Source: a virus
Direction: 5' to 3' (one strand)
IMG/VR virus record: IMGVR_UViG_3300037189_001411
Span: 1 to 23,195 of that record
Length of the DNA: 23,195 bases
Shown here: piece by piece, positions 10,649-22,867 of the stretch
Position numbering within the stretch: the first letter of the stretch is position 1
Layout: every line of letters begins with the position of its first letter
Position numbers and translations under genes: made by a program
Notes under the pieces: model-generated
Databases searched by the model: none
What the model was told of the DNA's origin: nothing
Seen by the model: the letters and a program-made list of their open reading frames with translations, nothing else

Positions 10649-10876
10649 ATGGCTCTTGCAGATTCTCTTGCTAAAAGAGATTTTCGCACCGACCTATGCT
10701 CTATTGGTAAAATCTATTCAAGGCTTGATGACGGCGATAAGAAGGCATTTGATAAGGCTCTTGCCGACAATGTTCCCGTTAATACGCTACTGGTTGCTCT
10801 TCAGGCTGAAGGCTATAAAGTGAGTTGGAGCGCGGTAAATAAACATATTAAAAAGTTGTGCAGGTGTTTTGAATGA
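10649..10876 (+). CDS. Small helix-turn-helix-like protein
   Basis: A 75-residue protein with a strong ribosome binding site (AAGGGGGG). The start at 10649 (MALADSLAKRDFRTD) is preferred over one at 10613, which lies inside the terminator. The C-terminal half (VPVNTLLVALQAEGYKVSWSAVNKHIKKL) reads as a helix-turn-helix, with the last helix basic. Similar small actinophage proteins end in a short Cys-x-Cys, as here (LCRCFE). It may be a DNA-binding regulator. It shares four bases with the metallophosphoesterase gene (ATGA). Confidence 0.7.
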   Translation: MALADSLAKRDFRTDLCSIGKIYSRLDDGDKKAFDKALADNVPVNTLLVALQAEGYKVSWSAVNKHIKKLCRCFE

Positions 10877-11910
10877 GCCTGAAAGACAACCTAAACCCTG
10901 ATCCGCAAATAGCCGATCTCCGCAAAGCCCTACTTAATACTCAGAGGCAGTTAGCCAATGTCAAGAAGAATAAAGATGATTTCACCGCCGCCGTTGTTCA
11001 AGCCGCGCACGATGCGATGCTCTCTGCTGGCCCAGTACCGTCAGTTCCTACGCCTAAGAAAGATACACGCGCTAAGAAAGCAGAAGTAGCTCTCCTACAC
11101 TCAACCGACTGGCAATTAGGCAAGCAGACTCTTACCTATAACTCCAAAGAGGCAGAGCGCCTTATCAAGCAATCTATTGAGAAAACCATACGCATCACCG
11201 ATATCCACCGCCAAGATCACCCTGTTAAGGAAATAGTCTTGATGTTAGGTGGAGACTTAGTTGAAAATACGACAATCTTCCCTTCTCAGGTGTACGAAGT
11301 GGACTCAGATGTAATGAGTCAGTTCGTGGATGTTTCGCGCATCCTCATAGACATTACTCGAACTCTCTTGGCTAACTTTGAGAAGGTAACGGTAGTCTGC
11401 GAGCCAGGCAATCATGGTCGTATTGGTAAGTTTGGCGAACTGCCTAAAGATATTAACTGGGATAAATTGGCTTATATGTTTGCCGGGCAAGCTCTAGCAG
11501 ATGAGAAGCGCCTGACTTGGCAGATGACTAAAGAGGATATTCAGCGCGTAGAGATAGGCAACTATAAAGCTCTGCTTATTCATGGAGACGAGATCAGATG
11601 GGGAACTGCCTCAACTATTGTCAGATTCGCTGATCGCTGGAAATCGGGCGCGTATAAGTTCTTTGATGAGGTAGAGCAGATTACTAAGGGCTTTGACTTT
11701 AGGGATCTTTACATAGGTCACTACCACCAGCACCAGTCTTGGAATATGGCTAACGGAGAAGGAAGCGTGTTTATGTCAGGGGCGGTAGAGACTGGCAACA
11801 GATACGCTCGGGATCTTCTAGCCTCCAATGGGGCCGCCTCTCAGCGCCTACACTTTGTAGATCCCACCAAGGGGCGTGTGAGCGCCGAATATAGGTTGTG
11901 GCTAGAGTGA
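10873..11910 (+). CDS. Metallophosphoesterase, calcineurin-like (phage nuclease or phosphatase)
   Basis: A 345-residue protein. After a helical N-terminus (residues 1-70), the metal-binding motifs appear in order: STDWQLG (D79-x-Q81), LGGDLVE (G127 D128), GNHGRIG (179-181), IHGDE (H237) and GHYHQHQ (282-285). These define the calcineurin-like superfamily, and the arrangement resembles SbcD/Mre11-type or phage DNA repair phosphoesterases. The first motif has D-W-Q where D-x-H is usual, which may alter one metal site but recurs in phage members. Probable role in DNA end processing or nucleotide hydrolysis. Confidence 0.8.
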   Translation: MSLKDNLNPDPQIADLRKALLNTQRQLANVKKNKDDFTAAVVQAAHDAMLSAGPVPSVPTPKKDTRAKKAEVALLHSTDWQLGKQTLTYNSKEAERLIKQSIEKTIRITDIHRQDHPVKEIVLMLGGDLVENTTIFPSQVYEVDSDVMSQFVDVSRILIDITRTLLANFEKVTVVCEPGNHGRIGKFGELPKDINWDKLAYMFAGQALADEKRLTWQMTKEDIQRVEIGNYKALLIHGDEIRWGTASTIVRFADRWKSGAYKFFDEVEQITKGFDFRDLYIGHYHQHQSWNMANGEGSVFMSGAVETGNRYARDLLASNGAASQRLHFVDPTKGRVSAEYRLWLE

Positions 11911-13692: not shown

Positions 13693-14311
13693 AGAGGCAG
13701 ACAATCAACGCGCTAGATCAACTCAGGTAGAGCTAGGTGCTTCATCTGTTGGTGGGTGTCGCGCTCAGGCTTGGCATATCATTAACCAAACTCCGAAAAT
13801 AAACGAAGGAACTGAATCACTTGCGGCGATATTGGGTACTGCTATCCATAACACGGTACAAGAAGCGTTACAGTCATACGATCTGTTTGGTGAGGACTAT
13901 CTCCTTGAACAAGGGTTTGAGACCCCGGAACTCAAAGGGCATTGTGATTTCTATTCTCGAAAAGATAAGTTGGTCGTGGATTGGAAAACTACTAGCCTTA
14001 AAAACTTATCGAAGTTTCCGAGCGCACAACAAAAAATGCAAGTGCAACTTTACGGTTATCTCCTTACCAAAAATGGTTTGGAAGTTGAAACGGTAGCTCT
14101 TTGCGCCATCCCCAGAGATGGGCGTATGCGTGATATTAAAGTATGGCAAGCCCCATACGATGAAAGCGTTGCAGTAGAAGGCTTACAGTGGATAGCTGAG
14201 ATTAAAGCAATGGAATCCGCTCCCCCACCCGAGAGAAGCGCGGCTTTCTTTTGCCGCGATTATTGTTCTTACTACGACCCTAGCGGGAAGATTGGATGCA
14301 CAGGAAAATGA
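13658..14311 (+). CDS. PD-(D/E)XK exonuclease with four-Cys cluster (Cas4/RecB-like)
   Basis: A 217-residue protein from ATG 13658, with GGGGG at 13647-13651. Motifs in order: LGTAIHNTVQ (H64), GHCDFYS (D97), VVDWKTTS (D108-W-K110) and MQVQLYGYLL (Q-x-x-x-Y), the catalytic core of RecB-type nucleases. C34 (GGCRAQAW) with C199, C203 and C214 in the C-terminal segment are placed as in the iron-sulfur cluster of Cas4/AddB-like nucleases. It should resect double-stranded ends to give single strands for the annealase candidate upstream. WhiB overlaps its end by four bases. Confidence 0.85.
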   Translation: MDIIKTLTTALKEADNQRARSTQVELGASSVGGCRAQAWHIINQTPKINEGTESLAAILGTAIHNTVQEALQSYDLFGEDYLLEQGFETPELKGHCDFYSRKDKLVVDWKTTSLKNLSKFPSAQQKMQVQLYGYLLTKNGLEVETVALCAIPRDGRMRDIKVWQAPYDESVAVEGLQWIAEIKAMESAPPPERSAAFFCRDYCSYYDPSGKIGCTGK

Positions 14312-14637
14312 GAGAAGTCAATGTCAAGGGAACGGACTGGACTAAGGCTAATTGCCGGGGATTGAACACAGAGATTTTTTACTTAGAGGAAAGCGATTTA
14401 AAGGATCGTGGTATGACGATCAAAGTTATTCGCAAAGTATGTTTTACCTGCCCTATTCGCAAAGCCTGTTTAGATGCTGGTATGGAAGAGGAATATGGAA
14501 TTTGGGGAGGCTTCACAAAGCGAGAGCGCGTGTATATCCGCAACGGCAATCTTCACGATACCGACATGAACCCAGTACGCCGTCAATTAGAGGACTTTGG
14601 CATTACGCTAGATGAAGCTATTAAGGGGGTCGCATGA
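14308..14637 (+). CDS. whiB: WhiB-family transcription factor
   Basis: A 109-residue protein with the WhiB signature: C16 (WTKANCRG), C45-x-x-C48 and C54 (KVCFTCPIRKAC) for a [4Fe-4S] cluster, then GIWGG (64-68) and the basic GFTKRERVYIR. WhiB proteins are exclusive to actinobacteria and their phages and usually act through the primary sigma factor. The mycobacteriophage TM4 copy represses host whiB2 and blocks septation and superinfection. The ATG at 14308 overlaps the nuclease stop; an ATG at 14296 with GGGAAG is an alternative giving four more residues. Confidence 0.92.
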   Translation: MREVNVKGTDWTKANCRGLNTEIFYLEESDLKDRGMTIKVIRKVCFTCPIRKACLDAGMEEEYGIWGGFTKRERVYIRNGNLHDTDMNPVRRQLEDFGITLDEAIKGVA

Positions 14638-17604: not shown

Positions 17605-17711
17605 ATCCTGATGTTTGTTACGAACATGGAAATACTTGCGATGACCCTAAGTGCTTGTGCTTTGTTTTAATGAAAGAAGATTGCGAACAATGTCTGGAGG
17701 CGGCAAAATGA
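17601..17711 (+). CDS. Very small Cys-rich protein
   Basis: A 36-residue protein from a GTG with GGAGG upstream, overlapping the FmdB-like stop by four bases (GTGA) and the kinase start by four. It contains six cysteines (VCYEHGNTCDDPKCLC and DCEQCLEAAK), so it is probably a zinc-binding peptide. Both overlaps and a good ribosome binding site make it credible. Confidence 0.6.
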   Translation: MNPDVCYEHGNTCDDPKCLCFVLMKEDCEQCLEAAK

Positions 17712-18241
17712 TTATTGGTCTTAGTGGTTATGCTCAAGTTGGTAAAGATACGGTTGCAAACATTCTTGTTCAGCATCACGGTTACAAGCGCGTAGCCTTT
17801 GCCGACAAGATTCGAGAGTGCTTATTTGCGCTTGACCCAATTATCTCAGTACGAGCTGAGTTCCCACTTCATCTCTCAGAATACTTTGATGATTTTGGAT
17901 GGGAAGCGGCTAAGAAGATGCCCGAGGTTCGCAGACTGCTTCAAGTGCTAGGCACTGAGGTAGGTCGCAATATTATTGACCCGCAGTTATGGATCGAGAT
18001 GGCGCTCGGCAATGTAGAGGCTGGCGATAAAATCGTAGTAACTGATGTGCGATTTCCTGACGAAGCCCAAGAGATTAAGTGGTTGTTTGGCGAAGTGTGG
18101 CGCATAAATCGCCAGGGAATATACCCTGCTAATGACCATAGTTCTGAAACGGCTATGGATGACTGGGTATTTGATCGCATTCTTGATAACTCAGGTGATC
18201 TCCAAATGCTTGAAGAGCTAGTGGATGATTTGATCTTATGA
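17708..18241 (+). CDS. Deoxynucleoside monophosphate kinase
   Basis: A 177-residue protein from ATG 17708 with TGGAGG upstream. It begins with a P-loop of the dNMP kinase type (IGLSGYAQVGKDT, residues 3-15, with GKDT) followed by the helix VANILVQHHGYKRVAFADKI. Later motifs include EVRRLLQVLGTEVGRNI and VVTDVRFPDEAQEI. The family (T4 gp1-like) phosphorylates dNMPs to dNDPs, keeping the nucleotide pool filled for phage DNA synthesis. No thymidylate synthase or base-modifying enzyme is seen nearby in the window. Confidence 0.85.
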   Translation: MIIGLSGYAQVGKDTVANILVQHHGYKRVAFADKIRECLFALDPIISVRAEFPLHLSEYFDDFGWEAAKKMPEVRRLLQVLGTEVGRNIIDPQLWIEMALGNVEAGDKIVVTDVRFPDEAQEIKWLFGEVWRINRQGIYPANDHSSETAMDDWVFDRILDNSGDLQMLEELVDDLIL

Positions 18242-18486: not shown

Positions 18487-18625
18487 GTGGAATATAGGCA
18501 GGTGTCAATCATGCGGGGAATGGATCGTATTTGACCGCCCTTGCTCGGCTTGTACTACAATAACCACACGACCAGAGAAAGGGGATGCAGAAATGCACAC
18601 TTCAATCAACGGAGGCACACGATGA
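18476..18625 (+). CDS. Small zinc-ribbon protein
   Basis: A 49-residue protein (MNAEWNIGRCQSCGEWIVF) with CQSC and CSAC (DRPCSACTTI), a compact zinc ribbon; the rest is Thr-rich and basic. It overlaps the preceding gene by 11 bases and has TTGGAG upstream. Its end lies inside the region where the transglycosylase start is uncertain. Confidence 0.65.
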   Translation: MNAEWNIGRCQSCGEWIVFDRPCSACTTITTRPEKGDAEMHTSINGGTR

Positions 18626-19076
18626 GCGCACTAGGACAGGCGGCGATTGGAGCGGCCTGAAATTAAAGGCTCGATTCCTTCTAGTAGCGGCAGTGGCCGT
18701 AGGACTCGCGCTTGCTAATCCGTCATACGCAATAGCTCCAAAACAGATGTTTGTACAACGAACACCTATGGCGGCAAAGCACTATGCCAAACTACAATTA
18801 AATAATTACGGATGGGCAAGACAATGGGGATGTTTAGAAACTCTTTGGCAGAATGAATCCAACTGGAGACCTAATGCCAAGAATCACACTCCTGTTAAAA
18901 TGCTCGTAAACGGTAAATGGGTTAAATTCTATGCTGGCGGGATTCCGCAGAAATTAGGACTTAACCCAAATGCAAGCGTTGAAAAGCAGATATCGGTTGG
19001 GCTTAGTTATATCCGGGATCGTTACGGCTCACCCTGTAATGCTTTACGGTGGTGGAAGTCTCACTACTGGTACTAA
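18585..19076 (+). CDS. Secreted actinobacterial-type lytic transglycosylase
   Basis: The first ATG in frame (18585) gives 163 residues, but the first 23 overlap the previous gene and look unlike a signal peptide. A CTG at 18657, overlapping a TGA, would give a classical one: basic LKLKAR, then FLLVAAVAVGLALANPSYA and a likely cut after SYA. The mature part, about 112 residues, has WGCLETLWQNESNW with the probable catalytic Glu, AGGIPQKLG and YIRDRYGSPC, as in actinobacterial lytic transglycosylases. It would be exported and act on peptidoglycan, unlike the CHAP endolysin. It may weaken the wall or hinder superinfection. Followed by a terminator. Confidence 0.75.
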   Translation: MQKCTLQSTEAHDERTRTGGDWSGLKLKARFLLVAAVAVGLALANPSYAIAPKQMFVQRTPMAAKHYAKLQLNNYGWARQWGCLETLWQNESNWRPNAKNHTPVKMLVNGKWVKFYAGGIPQKLGLNPNASVEKQISVGLSYIRDRYGSPCNALRWWKSHYWY

Positions 19077-19079
19077 AGT

Positions 19080-19101
19080 TCCTAGTGCCGTTCCACTAGG
19101 A
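19080..19101 (+). other. Perfect hairpin directly after the transglycosylase gene
   Basis: CCTAGTG (19081-19087) pairs with CACTAGG (19094-19100) around a six-base loop; one further A-T pair extends it to 19080-19101. No U-tract follows; the next hairpin is a few bases downstream. It may form a structured 3' end with it. Confidence 0.6.
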
Positions 19102-19104
19102 CAC

Positions 19105-19158
19105 AAGGGCGGTTGAGCAGAGATACCTCCAGTTCTCAGCTCCCGCCCTTCTTTTATT
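19105..19158 (+). terminator. Rho-independent terminator after the transglycosylase gene
   Basis: AAGGGCGG (19105-19112) pairs with CCGCCCTT (19143-19150); GAGC (19115-19118) and GCTC (19139-19142) extend it past a two-base bulge. CTTTTATT follows. This ends the operon that begins near the LexA box. Confidence 0.85.
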
Positions 19159-19250
19159 GTGGTATGTTATGAGCGTTGGCAACCCGCCAACAGTCGAAAT
19201 ACAACTTCATATTGAAGGTCTGACTTGTGAGGCCACAACTAGACCAACTA

Positions 19251-19288
19251 AACCCCTGAACCGTAATAAAAACGCTCAGGGGTTTTTT
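19251..19288 (+). terminator. Rho-independent terminator before the proteasome-like gene
   Basis: AACCCCTGA (19251-19259) pairs with TCAGGGGTT (19276-19284) over nine bases, with TTTTTT following. It lies 17 bases before the next gene, so the stretch 19159-19250 between the two terminators is bracketed and could be a small RNA or a leader. No promoter or tRNA shape is evident in it. Confidence 0.88.
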
Positions 19289-19304
19289 AATGTAAGGTAT
19301 GCCC

Positions 19305-19841
19305 ATGACCACAATCGCGGCAATCCAATATGAAGATCGAGTGGTTATAGGCGCAGATAGCCAAGTAACTGCTACTCGTCAGTTCTCGCATCCGCGTATG
19401 GCAAAGATTACAGAACGCGGTCAATATTTAATTGCCGGGGCTGGATTAAGTTCTGCTTGCGATATAGCTCAACATATTTGGATTCCACCTAAGCCAACAG
19501 TTGATGACCGTAAAGACCTATATCACTTTATGATTGCCAAAGTAGTGCCATCTCTCAAGCAATCTTTTAAAGATAATGATTTCAAGTTAGAGGATGATAA
19601 AGATGAAGAAACCCGATTCTCGTTCCTCATCGCCGTTGGTGGTGAAGTGTTTGATTTGGCTGACGATTTTGCCGTTAGCCTTGACAGTAGTGGTCATTAC
19701 GCTATTGGATCGGGGTCTAGCCTCGCTCTTGGCGCGCTGGCACATGGCGCAACTCTTGAAGAGGCGTTAGAAATAGCCGCAAGTAAAGACCCATATACCT
19801 CAGCGCCGTTTTATTTCCATGAGCAGGTAAAGCGTGGATAA
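19305..19841 (+). CDS. Proteasome beta / HslV-like Ntn hydrolase
   Basis: A 178-residue protein. ATG 19305 is chosen because AAGG lies seven bases upstream and because, after Met removal, Thr is residue 1. The mature start TTIAAIQYEDRVVIGADSQ puts Thr1, Asp17 and Lys33 (HPRMAKIT) at the classical catalytic positions of proteasome beta subunits and HslV, and AIGSGSSLALGAL (132-144) matches the GSGS loop. An SFLIAVGGEVFDL strand pair completes the fold. No ATPase partner (HslU, Mpa/ARC) is seen in the window. It could assemble with itself or the host proteasome, or be a stand-alone peptidase or amidase. The role in infection is unknown. Confidence 0.8.
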   Translation: MTTIAAIQYEDRVVIGADSQVTATRQFSHPRMAKITERGQYLIAGAGLSSACDIAQHIWIPPKPTVDDRKDLYHFMIAKVVPSLKQSFKDNDFKLEDDKDEETRFSFLIAVGGEVFDLADDFAVSLDSSGHYAIGSGSSLALGALAHGATLEEALEIAASKDPYTSAPFYFHEQVKRG

Positions 19842-20178
19842 GAAAATAGCAGAGACCGTACTAGCTCGCGCCAAAGGCTACTGCGAGGCGTGTGGCTTGC
19901 CCGGCGATGACTTTGCCTTGCACCATAGAAAACTGAAATCGCGTGGGGGCAAAGACGAAGTTGCCAACCTGATTGCGGTTCACCATAAGTGCCACAATCT
20001 AGGCACAGATAGTATTCACCTAAACCCAAAAGTGGCTACGGTGAAAGGCTGGATGATCCCTTCGTGGGCCAATCCCGCCGAATACCCCTTACATCTTCAC
20101 GATGCAGAGGTAGTAGTGTTGGACAACGAGGGCAATTACAACAAATTGGAGGCTTCACATGGCACAGATAACAGTTAG
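19834..20178 (+). CDS. HNH endonuclease
   Basis: A 114-residue protein from a GTG that overlaps the previous stop by eight bases. It has C17xxC20 (YCEACGLP), then LHHRKLKSRGGK (H30, H31, R32), then NLIAVHHKCHN (N45, H50, C53, H54): the HNH layout with a zinc site. The C-terminal half is a separate segment with no motif. Small HNH proteins of this type nick or cut DNA, sometimes in packaging or as homing enzymes; no intron surrounds it. It overlaps ssb by 20 bases. Confidence 0.85.
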   Translation: MDKKIAETVLARAKGYCEACGLPGDDFALHHRKLKSRGGKDEVANLIAVHHKCHNLGTDSIHLNPKVATVKGWMIPSWANPAEYPLHLHDAEVVVLDNEGNYNKLEASHGTDNS

Positions 20179-21534: not shown

Positions 21535-21741
21535 ATGATTACCGCCGAAGCCACTCTTGATGAAATAGATGAAGCCCTAGCGCACCTGCGCGAACGCTTA
21601 CAAGATCGCTATGGTAATCGCCTGACCTATCAACAAAGGCAACTTTACCTTTCTAGCGTAGATGATCTCCTAGATGCAAGACTTTCACTAACGGAAGGCA
21701 ACCGTGAAAATTTCAATAACAGAGCTATCTCTAGACCCTAA
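21535..21741 (+). CDS. Small helical hypothetical protein
   Basis: A 68-residue protein (MITAEATLDEIDEALAHLRE) with AGGATAGG upstream. It is acidic and helical with a Tyr/Gln-rich middle (YGNRLTYQQRQLYLSSVDD). It is the first gene behind the promoter candidate and overlaps the methyltransferase by 38 bases. No family recognised. Confidence 0.65.
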   Translation: MITAEATLDEIDEALAHLRERLQDRYGNRLTYQQRQLYLSSVDDLLDARLSLTEGNRENFNNRAISRP

Positions 21742-22867
21742 AAACGCCCGCAAGCATTCTCAGCGTAACCTTGATGCTATTGCGGCTTCTCTGCTAAAGT
21801 TTGGCCAGCGCAAGCCTCTAGTAGTCCATCGTGGTGTTGTTCTAGCGGGCAACGGAACTCTAGAGGCCGCGCGTTCTCTTGGCTGGACAGAGATTGATGT
21901 TGCCGAAGTTCCCAACGATTGGGATATGGATACGGCTAAAGCCTACGCGCTTGCCGATAATAGAACTGCTGAACTGGCTGAGTGGGATGAATCTGAACTT
22001 GCCAAACAATTATTAGAGCTTGTAGATAACGAGTGGGATATAGCCGAATTAGGCTTTGAGATGCCACAGGTTATTGAAGTTGAGCCTGTTGATGAAGACG
22101 ATGTACCGGAAGCCCCGGCAGAACCTAAGACCAAATTAGGAGATGTGTGGCAACTGGGTAAGCACCGTTTAGTCTGCGGAGACTCTACTGATGTGACGGT
22201 TCTAGACAAACTCCTAGGAAATGAAAAGGCTGATCTAGTCTGGACAGATCCACCATACGGCGTAAGTTATGTGGGCAAAACTAAAGATGCTCTTACTATT
22301 GAAAACGATACGCTTAATATTGCCGAACTTGAAGAATTCTTGCGTTCTGCTTTTAATGCAATTTTTACTGCTACAAAGCCCGGTGCTTGCTGGTATGTAG
22401 CCGCGCCTTCGGGCAACTTGTTTCAAGCCTTTAGCATTCCTTTATCAGAATTAGAAATATGGCGGCACACCCTTGTATGGGTAAAGGACACCCTTGTTAT
22501 GGGGCGCGCCGACTATCACTACCGCCACGAATCTATCTTCTATGGCTGGACACCGGGAGCGGCGCATCAAACCCCGCCAGACCGCAAGCAAGACACTATT
22601 TGGGAAATAAAGCGCCCAAAGGCCAACAAGGAACACCCTACGATGAAGCCAGTTGAACTTATCGAGCGCGCTATTCAGAACTCTAGCCTTGCAGGTCAAT
22701 TAGTCCTAGATGCCTTTGGTGGCTCAGGGTCTACCCTTATTGCGTGTGAGCAGACAAAGCGCGTGGCTAGGCTAATAGAGCTAGACCCTAAATACTGTGA
22801 TGTTATTGTGACCCGATGGGAGAATCTTACAGGGCTAAAAGCCGAGCTTGTTACTGTAAGTAATTAA
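21704..22867 (+). CDS. ParB-like domain fused to a DNA adenine/cytosine-N4 methyltransferase
   Basis: A 387-residue protein from a GTG with GGAAGG upstream. Residues 1-95 are a ParB-type domain (ELSLDPKNARKHSQRN, GQRKPLVVHRGVVLAGNGT, AYALADNRTAELAEW). Residues 145-385 are an amino-methyltransferase: DLVWTDPPYGVSYV (DPPY 182-185, catalytic), HPTMKPVELIERAI and LDAFGGSGSTLIACE (338-344, cofactor loop). The DPPY motif precedes the SAM motif, the beta-class order. No restriction enzyme is beside it, so it looks like an orphan methylase, perhaps protecting phage DNA or marking it near packaging. Next to terS. Confidence 0.88.
   Translation: MKISITELSLDPKNARKHSQRNLDAIAASLLKFGQRKPLVVHRGVVLAGNGTLEAARSLGWTEIDVAEVPNDWDMDTAKAYALADNRTAELAEWDESELAKQLLELVDNEWDIAELGFEMPQVIEVEPVDEDDVPEAPAEPKTKLGDVWQLGKHRLVCGDSTDVTVLDKLLGNEKADLVWTDPPYGVSYVGKTKDALTIENDTLNIAELEEFLRSAFNAIFTATKPGACWYVAAPSGNLFQAFSIPLSELEIWRHTLVWVKDTLVMGRADYHYRHESIFYGWTPGAAHQTPPDRKQDTIWEIKRPKANKEHPTMKPVELIERAIQNSSLAGQLVLDAFGGSGSTLIACEQTKRVARLIELDPKYCDVIVTRWENLTGLKAELVTVSN

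Follow-up and report, generated by a model that had tools for sequence, protein, structure and literature searches.

A predicted proteasome-type hydrolase encoded as a single-gene cassette by WhiB-carrying freshwater phages

What kind of enzyme is the proteasome-like protein encoded by this virus, where do its closest kin occur, and what could it do for a phage? Proteasome homologues were reported from phages several years ago, and none has yet been given a function. We addressed these questions for the gene at 19305-19841 of a 23,195-nucleotide stretch of viral DNA, positions 1 to 23,195 of IMG/VR record IMGVR_UViG_3300037189_001411, referred to here as the window. The gene and the features of its product are as follows.

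19305..19841, + strand: gene for a proteasome-like (BPH/HslV-type) Ntn hydrolase of 178 aa (open reading frame, profiles, fold, conservation)
19294..19297, + strand: Shine-Dalgarno-like AAGG, 7 nt 5' of the ATG at 19305 (sequence)
19308..19310, + strand: codon of Thr1, the predicted N-terminal nucleophile after Met removal (conserved in 101/101)
19356..19358, + strand: Asp17 codon GAT (conserved in 101/101)
19404..19406, + strand: Lys33 codon AAG (conserved in 101/101)
19572..19616, + strand: acidic loop DNDFKLEDDKDEETR at the pore-loop position between helix H2 and strand S7 (charge, alignment with BPH)
19707..19715, + strand: GSG loop (G134/G136 in 101/101, S135 in 98/101)

Identity and predicted fold

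The gene is a real open reading frame that runs from the ATG at 19305 to the TAA ending at 19841, and the GTAAGG around its Shine-Dalgarno-like site is kept in the aligned near relatives. A second in-frame ATG at 19299 would extend the protein by two residues (MPMTTIA...); this start is disfavored by the relatives and by ribosome-binding-site spacing, since only 1 nt separates it from the AAGG. The relatives have an in-frame stop 1-20 codons before the start, leaving essentially no room for a propeptide. A sequence-only reading of the window had counted Thr1, Asp17 and Lys33 at the exact spacing of proteasome beta subunits and HslV after Met removal, had pointed to an agreeing glycine loop and had named conservation of the three residues in orthologues as one of the tests that could refute it. 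The count is correct, and none of the three residues changes in any of 101 distinct viral ORFs, divergent ones included; in the same set, the GSG loop retains G134 and G136 throughout and S135 in 98. Conservation extends beyond the active site, since C51, D52, Q55, H56, P60, P61, D67, D70, Y72 and H73 (Thr1 numbering; C52, D53, Q56, H57, P61, P62, D68, D71, Y73 and H74 when counted from Met) are invariant in a 27-sequence alignment. Judged from codon comparisons, the gene is under purifying selection, with pairwise dN/dS against the window protein of 0.07-0.16 in those comparisons with unsaturated dS.

Profile and sequence searches place the resemblance to the proteasome family above chance. 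The Pfam Proteasome model (PF00227) is passed narrowly, at 23.4 bits against a cut-off of 22.4 and over residues 2-48 only, while PHROG 1040 ("peptidase HslV family") matches residues 1-173 at E 6.8e-27. Among PDB sequences, the top phmmer match of the single sequence is BPH (5ovu, E 4.7e-5), which the family profile also retrieves at E 2.3e-7. The NCBIfam HslV models TIGR03692 and NF003964 give 28.3 of 157.75 bits and 29 of 137 bits, respectively (E ~1e-6), below their cut-offs. The bacterial 20S proteasome beta (PrcB) model TIGR03690 gives 14.4 bits against a cut-off of 191.9, which is not reached; a special kinship to the actinobacterial proteasome, suggested from sequence alone, was thus not borne out, and an origin from a host PrcB gene is unsupported.

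The AlphaFold2 monomer model (pLDDT 88.4, pTM 0.86) has helix pairs H1/H2 and H3/H4 flanking the beta strands, includes helix H2 at residues 72-90 and lacks a C-terminal extension. Foldseek returned 1163 PDB matches at E <= 0.001, and all 50 of the 50 listed are BPH, HslV or proteasome chains. The predicted fold is therefore of the proteasome type, as the sequence-only reading had proposed; the nearest solved relative is BPH (5ovs, E 3e-10, TM 0.65-0.72) rather than the HslV or proteasome beta it had named, which follow. Some phage proteins among the viral matches already carry the names HslV or proteasome beta. The loop between H2 and S7 is 14-18 residues long with a net charge of -3 to -5 in 28 of 28 sequences compared, and aligns with the pore loop of BPH, which is likewise acidic. 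The turn between H3 and H4 is tight in the family alignment, and the two-helix insertion between S3 and S4 typical of connectase is absent from both alignment and model. Taken together, sequence, conservation and predicted fold indicate that the protein is almost certainly a proteasome-type Ntn hydrolase of the HslV/BPH group, with an active site that looks catalytically competent.

Relatives, host and gene neighborhood

Searches of the viral contig collection recovered 253 relatives with the single sequence and at least 568 with a profile, and the nearest copies found all come from viruses. The first of two scans of genome contigs confirmed no close bacterial relative; the second yielded 28 distant bacterial homologues, none of them titled Actinobacteria. 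In a single tree of 33 rows, whose inner resolution is modest and whose root is arbitrary, the window family forms one side of a 99/97 branch, HslV is set apart as a clade (100/100) and BPH-like bacterial sequences are separated from the window family by a 99/94 branch. By these criteria, the family is a large virus-only branch. Its sister (support 88/89) comprises the homologues of phages F5 and E7, the closest cultured relatives of the protease (OX376641 and OX376640, or L085 and L138; titles LanE43-AprF5 and LanE43-AprE7), which were isolated on 'Ca. Planktophila' LanE-43 (PMC10202952); the two records carry no annotation and one protease homologue each. Microbacterium and Arthrobacter phages encode more distant homologues, among them gene 15 of WaterT and gene 135 of Pumpernickel (Microbacterium phages, with M. 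paraoxydans as host) and gene 81 of Arthrobacter phage Hum25, in agreement with the expectation that other actinophages would have them, and in some other phages the homologue is annotated "protease". No near DNA match to the window was found in the phage collection. A separate group of homologues begins MTC rather than MTT and includes L136:4001-4546 (a conjugative Rhizobium etli plasmid), L137 (phage D'Alembert), and L139 and L140 (Myxococcota); this group is possibly the AAH of PMC8665760.

The genes that define the surroundings of the protease gene are listed below.

10873..11910, + strand: exonuclease-like gene, left border of an alternative slot A that is empty here (profile match, context)
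14296..14637, + strand: WhiB-family gene, which points to an actinobacterial host (PF02467, 1.7e-13)
18585..19076, + strand: transglycosylase-like gene that bounds slot B on the left (profile match, gene context)
19077..19304, + strand: intergenic leader with terminator-like hairpins (fold z -6.0; alignment)
19834..20178, + strand: HNH endonuclease gene that bounds slot B on the right and shares 8 bp with the end of the protease gene (profile match, context)

WhiB genes mark actinobacterial hosts (PMC10202952, PMC6802176). Since the window encodes one, its phage probably infects Actinobacteria, an assignment at the level of phylum that agrees with the sequence-only reading of an actinophage gene. 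The protease gene lies in the early region, "early" being read from gene position, among genes for the exonuclease, a Cas4-like exonuclease, WhiB, RusA, SSB and HNH. In colinear phages it is found either in slot B, flanked by the transglycosylase-like gene and HNH, or in slot A, directly after the exonuclease gene. Of 22 phage clusters in which both slots are readable, 16 have the gene in slot B, three in slot A, three in neither and none in both; the probability that all three slot A cases would fall among the six clusters without a slot B copy is 20/1540, or ~0.013. No protease copy was found in four 37-39 kb records of this phage group, and the slot B gene of L176, L213, L216, L221 and L225 encodes a homologue with only 29-30% identity to the window protein. 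No partner gene is common to the two slots, each of which contains the protease gene alone. The two slots, losses, swaps and lack of a partner indicate that this is an accessory single-gene cassette of the early region, present in one copy, that has been gained, moved, replaced by exchange and lost. Because most contigs are IMG/VR fragments, individual absences of the protease gene, or of an ATPase gene, are provisional.

Several other features were noted in and around these slots. The slot B homologue of L176 (15446-16048) resembles that of phage DSL-LC01 and has extra residues between H3 and H4; with this insertion, the distant DSL-LC01 type may fit a double ring poorly. PADLOC defence models gave no match among three protease homologues. 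The first ~85 bp of the leader are conserved in close relatives, and window positions 19077-19160 contain an 8-bp hairpin (CCTAGTGCCGTTCCACTAGG) together with another terminator-like hairpin whose tail is rich in T. A 20-mer from this stretch is present at 28 loci and a second motif in 24 contigs, and no Rfam family matches it. Positions 19163-19290 form an extra segment, overlapped by a 54-aa ORF, that ends in a terminator-like hairpin with loop AACCGTAATAAAAACGCT; among aligned relatives the segment occurs in L025 only, where the hairpin has the same loop and different stem bases, and the loop sequence is found in few contigs. Elsewhere in the window are a deoxynucleoside monophosphate kinase gene (17651-18241; PF21448, phrog_139), which some but not all of the related phages have, and a gene in which a ParB-like domain is apparently fused to an N6/N4 DNA methyltransferase (21704-22867; phrog_498). 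The near-identical relative L266 (1654-3633 and 9526-10185) has two genes between terminase and portal, one for a 659-aa protein with collagen-like repeats and the other methyltransferase-like.

Possible functions of the phage enzyme

The window protein is probably a protease, and the best overall explanation, to which we assign a probability of about 0.5, is an ATP-independent, ring-forming protease that would attack unfolded or small host proteins early in infection. Host methionine aminopeptidase would expose Thr1, with no propeptide to remove. By analogy with BPH, the subunits would most likely form a homo-oligomeric double ring in which the active sites face an acidic chamber lined by pore loops; by the argument set out in PMC8665760, the tight H3-H4 turn would allow a double ring. 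Such a ring would need no AAA+ unfoldase of its own and would take unfolded or small proteins as substrates, which is what has been proposed for BPH. The sequence-only reading had seen no ATPase partner in the window, and this extends to the related phages: 18 phage records contained no match to AAA_2 (PF07724), and among the phage records searched AAA (PF00004) was found only in F5 and DSL-LC01, both distant relatives. A phage-encoded unfoldase is accordingly less likely, yet possible because the contigs are mostly fragments, and we regard a ring that works without an unfoldase, a proposal drawn from BPH, as about an even bet. The weakest step is the job itself, which may be directed early against host proteins, in takeover or counter-defence, and not toward virion assembly. 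This tentative role is suggested by the location of the gene among replication and takeover genes and by its gain, movement, replacement and loss as a single gene. A broader proposal, that this virus-specific, ring-forming, unfoldase-independent protease is an exchangeable early weapon of freshwater actinophages against host proteins (e.g., defence proteins or antitoxins), with distant homologues swapped into the slot as targets change, is a long shot.

A site that looks competent is no proof of general proteolysis, because BPH was inactive on the substrates tried (PMC5777263). This leaves a minor but real chance that the phage protein is instead a specific processing enzyme, or a ligase with connectase-like chemistry, that acts on one host or phage peptide and does not carry out bulk degradation. 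The family-specific invariant residues outside the active site and the undemonstrated general activity of BPH (PMC5777263) favor such specificity, and connectase proves that the fold can serve as a specific ligase (PMC8665760); nevertheless, the S3/S4 two-helix signature of connectase is missing from alignment and model, and the acidic pore loop and tight H3/H4 turn resemble those of a ring former. Docking on a host proteasomal ATPase, or co-assembly with PrcA/PrcB to redirect or poison the host proteasome, would suit a phage of Actinobacteria (as its WhiB gene suggests), a phylum in which proteasomes are common, and a protein with the catalytic core of the proteasome fold. We consider this improbable, since HslV and BPH are closer than PrcB (14.4 bits with TIGR03690 against 28-29 bits with the HslV models) and since the modeled protein has a compact group-I shape without the C-terminal S12/H5 used as a criterion in PMC8665760. 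Matches to the HslV models at E ~1e-6 and the PHROG name could suggest an HslV orthologue that works with host HslU, but 28-29 bits is far below the curated cut-offs of 137-158, the HslV clade (100/100) and the window family (99/97) are separate in the tree, the acidic loop differs from the short basic linker of HslV (PMC5777263), and Actinobacteria have no HslV entry in Table 1 of PMC8665760. We rejected this very unlikely pairing on the sub-cut-off scores, the tree and the lack of AAA_2 in the 18 phage records.

Some phage proteases serve capsid or scaffold maturation, and homologues of the window protein are annotated "protease" elsewhere. A role in maturation is nonetheless scarcely credible here. 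The record with a 97%-identical copy has a separate head-maturation-protease-like gene (phrog_80, 1.3e-8; phrog_3270, 1.6e-6), in the order portal, Mu-F-like, head-maturation-protease-like and capsid, and the annotation of Microbacterium phage WaterT lists a capsid maturation protease in addition to the homologue. In addition, the gene lies in the early region, uses two alternative slots and is missing from the relatives of 37-39 kb. Because of this position and the separate head-maturation-protease-like gene, we reject a capsid maturation protease.

Comparison with known systems

The virus-only branch makes the function of such proteins testable, since it offers near-full-length genomes that carry the gene and others that lack it, two alternative positions and a swapped distant homologue. 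Cultured relatives with known hosts, the Planktophila phages F5 and E7 and the Microbacterium and Arthrobacter phages with their more distant homologues, add to this. The F5 and E7 homologues are 38% identical to the window protein over its full length and form its sister group, although these phages belong to a different phage group and have little gene content in common with the window phage.

Among solved proteins, BPH (PDB 5ovs, 5ovt and 5ovu; PMC5777263) is the closest parallel, as the best match in both fold and PDB sequence and with the same Thr1, Asp17 and Lys33. BPH has a long acidic pore loop, no propeptide and no known unfoldase (PMC5777263), and the phage protein likewise appears to lack a propeptide, has an acidic H2-S7 loop and has no dedicated unfoldase among the records searched. 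The two differ in that identity is only ~22-23% and the BPH-like bacterial sequences lie across the 99/94 branch; BPH is a tetradecameric double ring, whereas the window protein is known here from a monomer model. HslV (ClpQ) shares fold and catalytic residues with the window protein, and differs in family cut-offs far above the score obtained, in its separate clade, in a short linker with basic residues at the pore-loop position (PMC5777263) and in its HslU partner, which was not found in the 18 phage records searched. Connectase has the same fold and is a monomeric ligase (PMC8665760).

Proteins of this kind are already known, since Fuchs, Alva and Lupas described phage proteasome homologues in 2021 (PMC8665760) and PHROG 1040 carries the HslV family name, so the suspicion that the family was known proved right. 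Their AAH, PPH and CPH are also proteasome-like proteins of tailed phages with no known AAA+ partner and no assigned function. PPH is ~140 aa long and lacks helix H2, whereas the window protein has 178 aa and H2, which rules out membership in that group. No AAH gene was found in Actinobacteria-specific phages by PMC8665760, whereas the window family occurs in WhiB-encoding freshwater phages; should it prove to be AAH, it would bear on that remark. What is new here, as far as sequence relationships define it, is a virus-only clade in WhiB-encoding freshwater phages that is sister to the unannotated homologues of the Planktophila phages.
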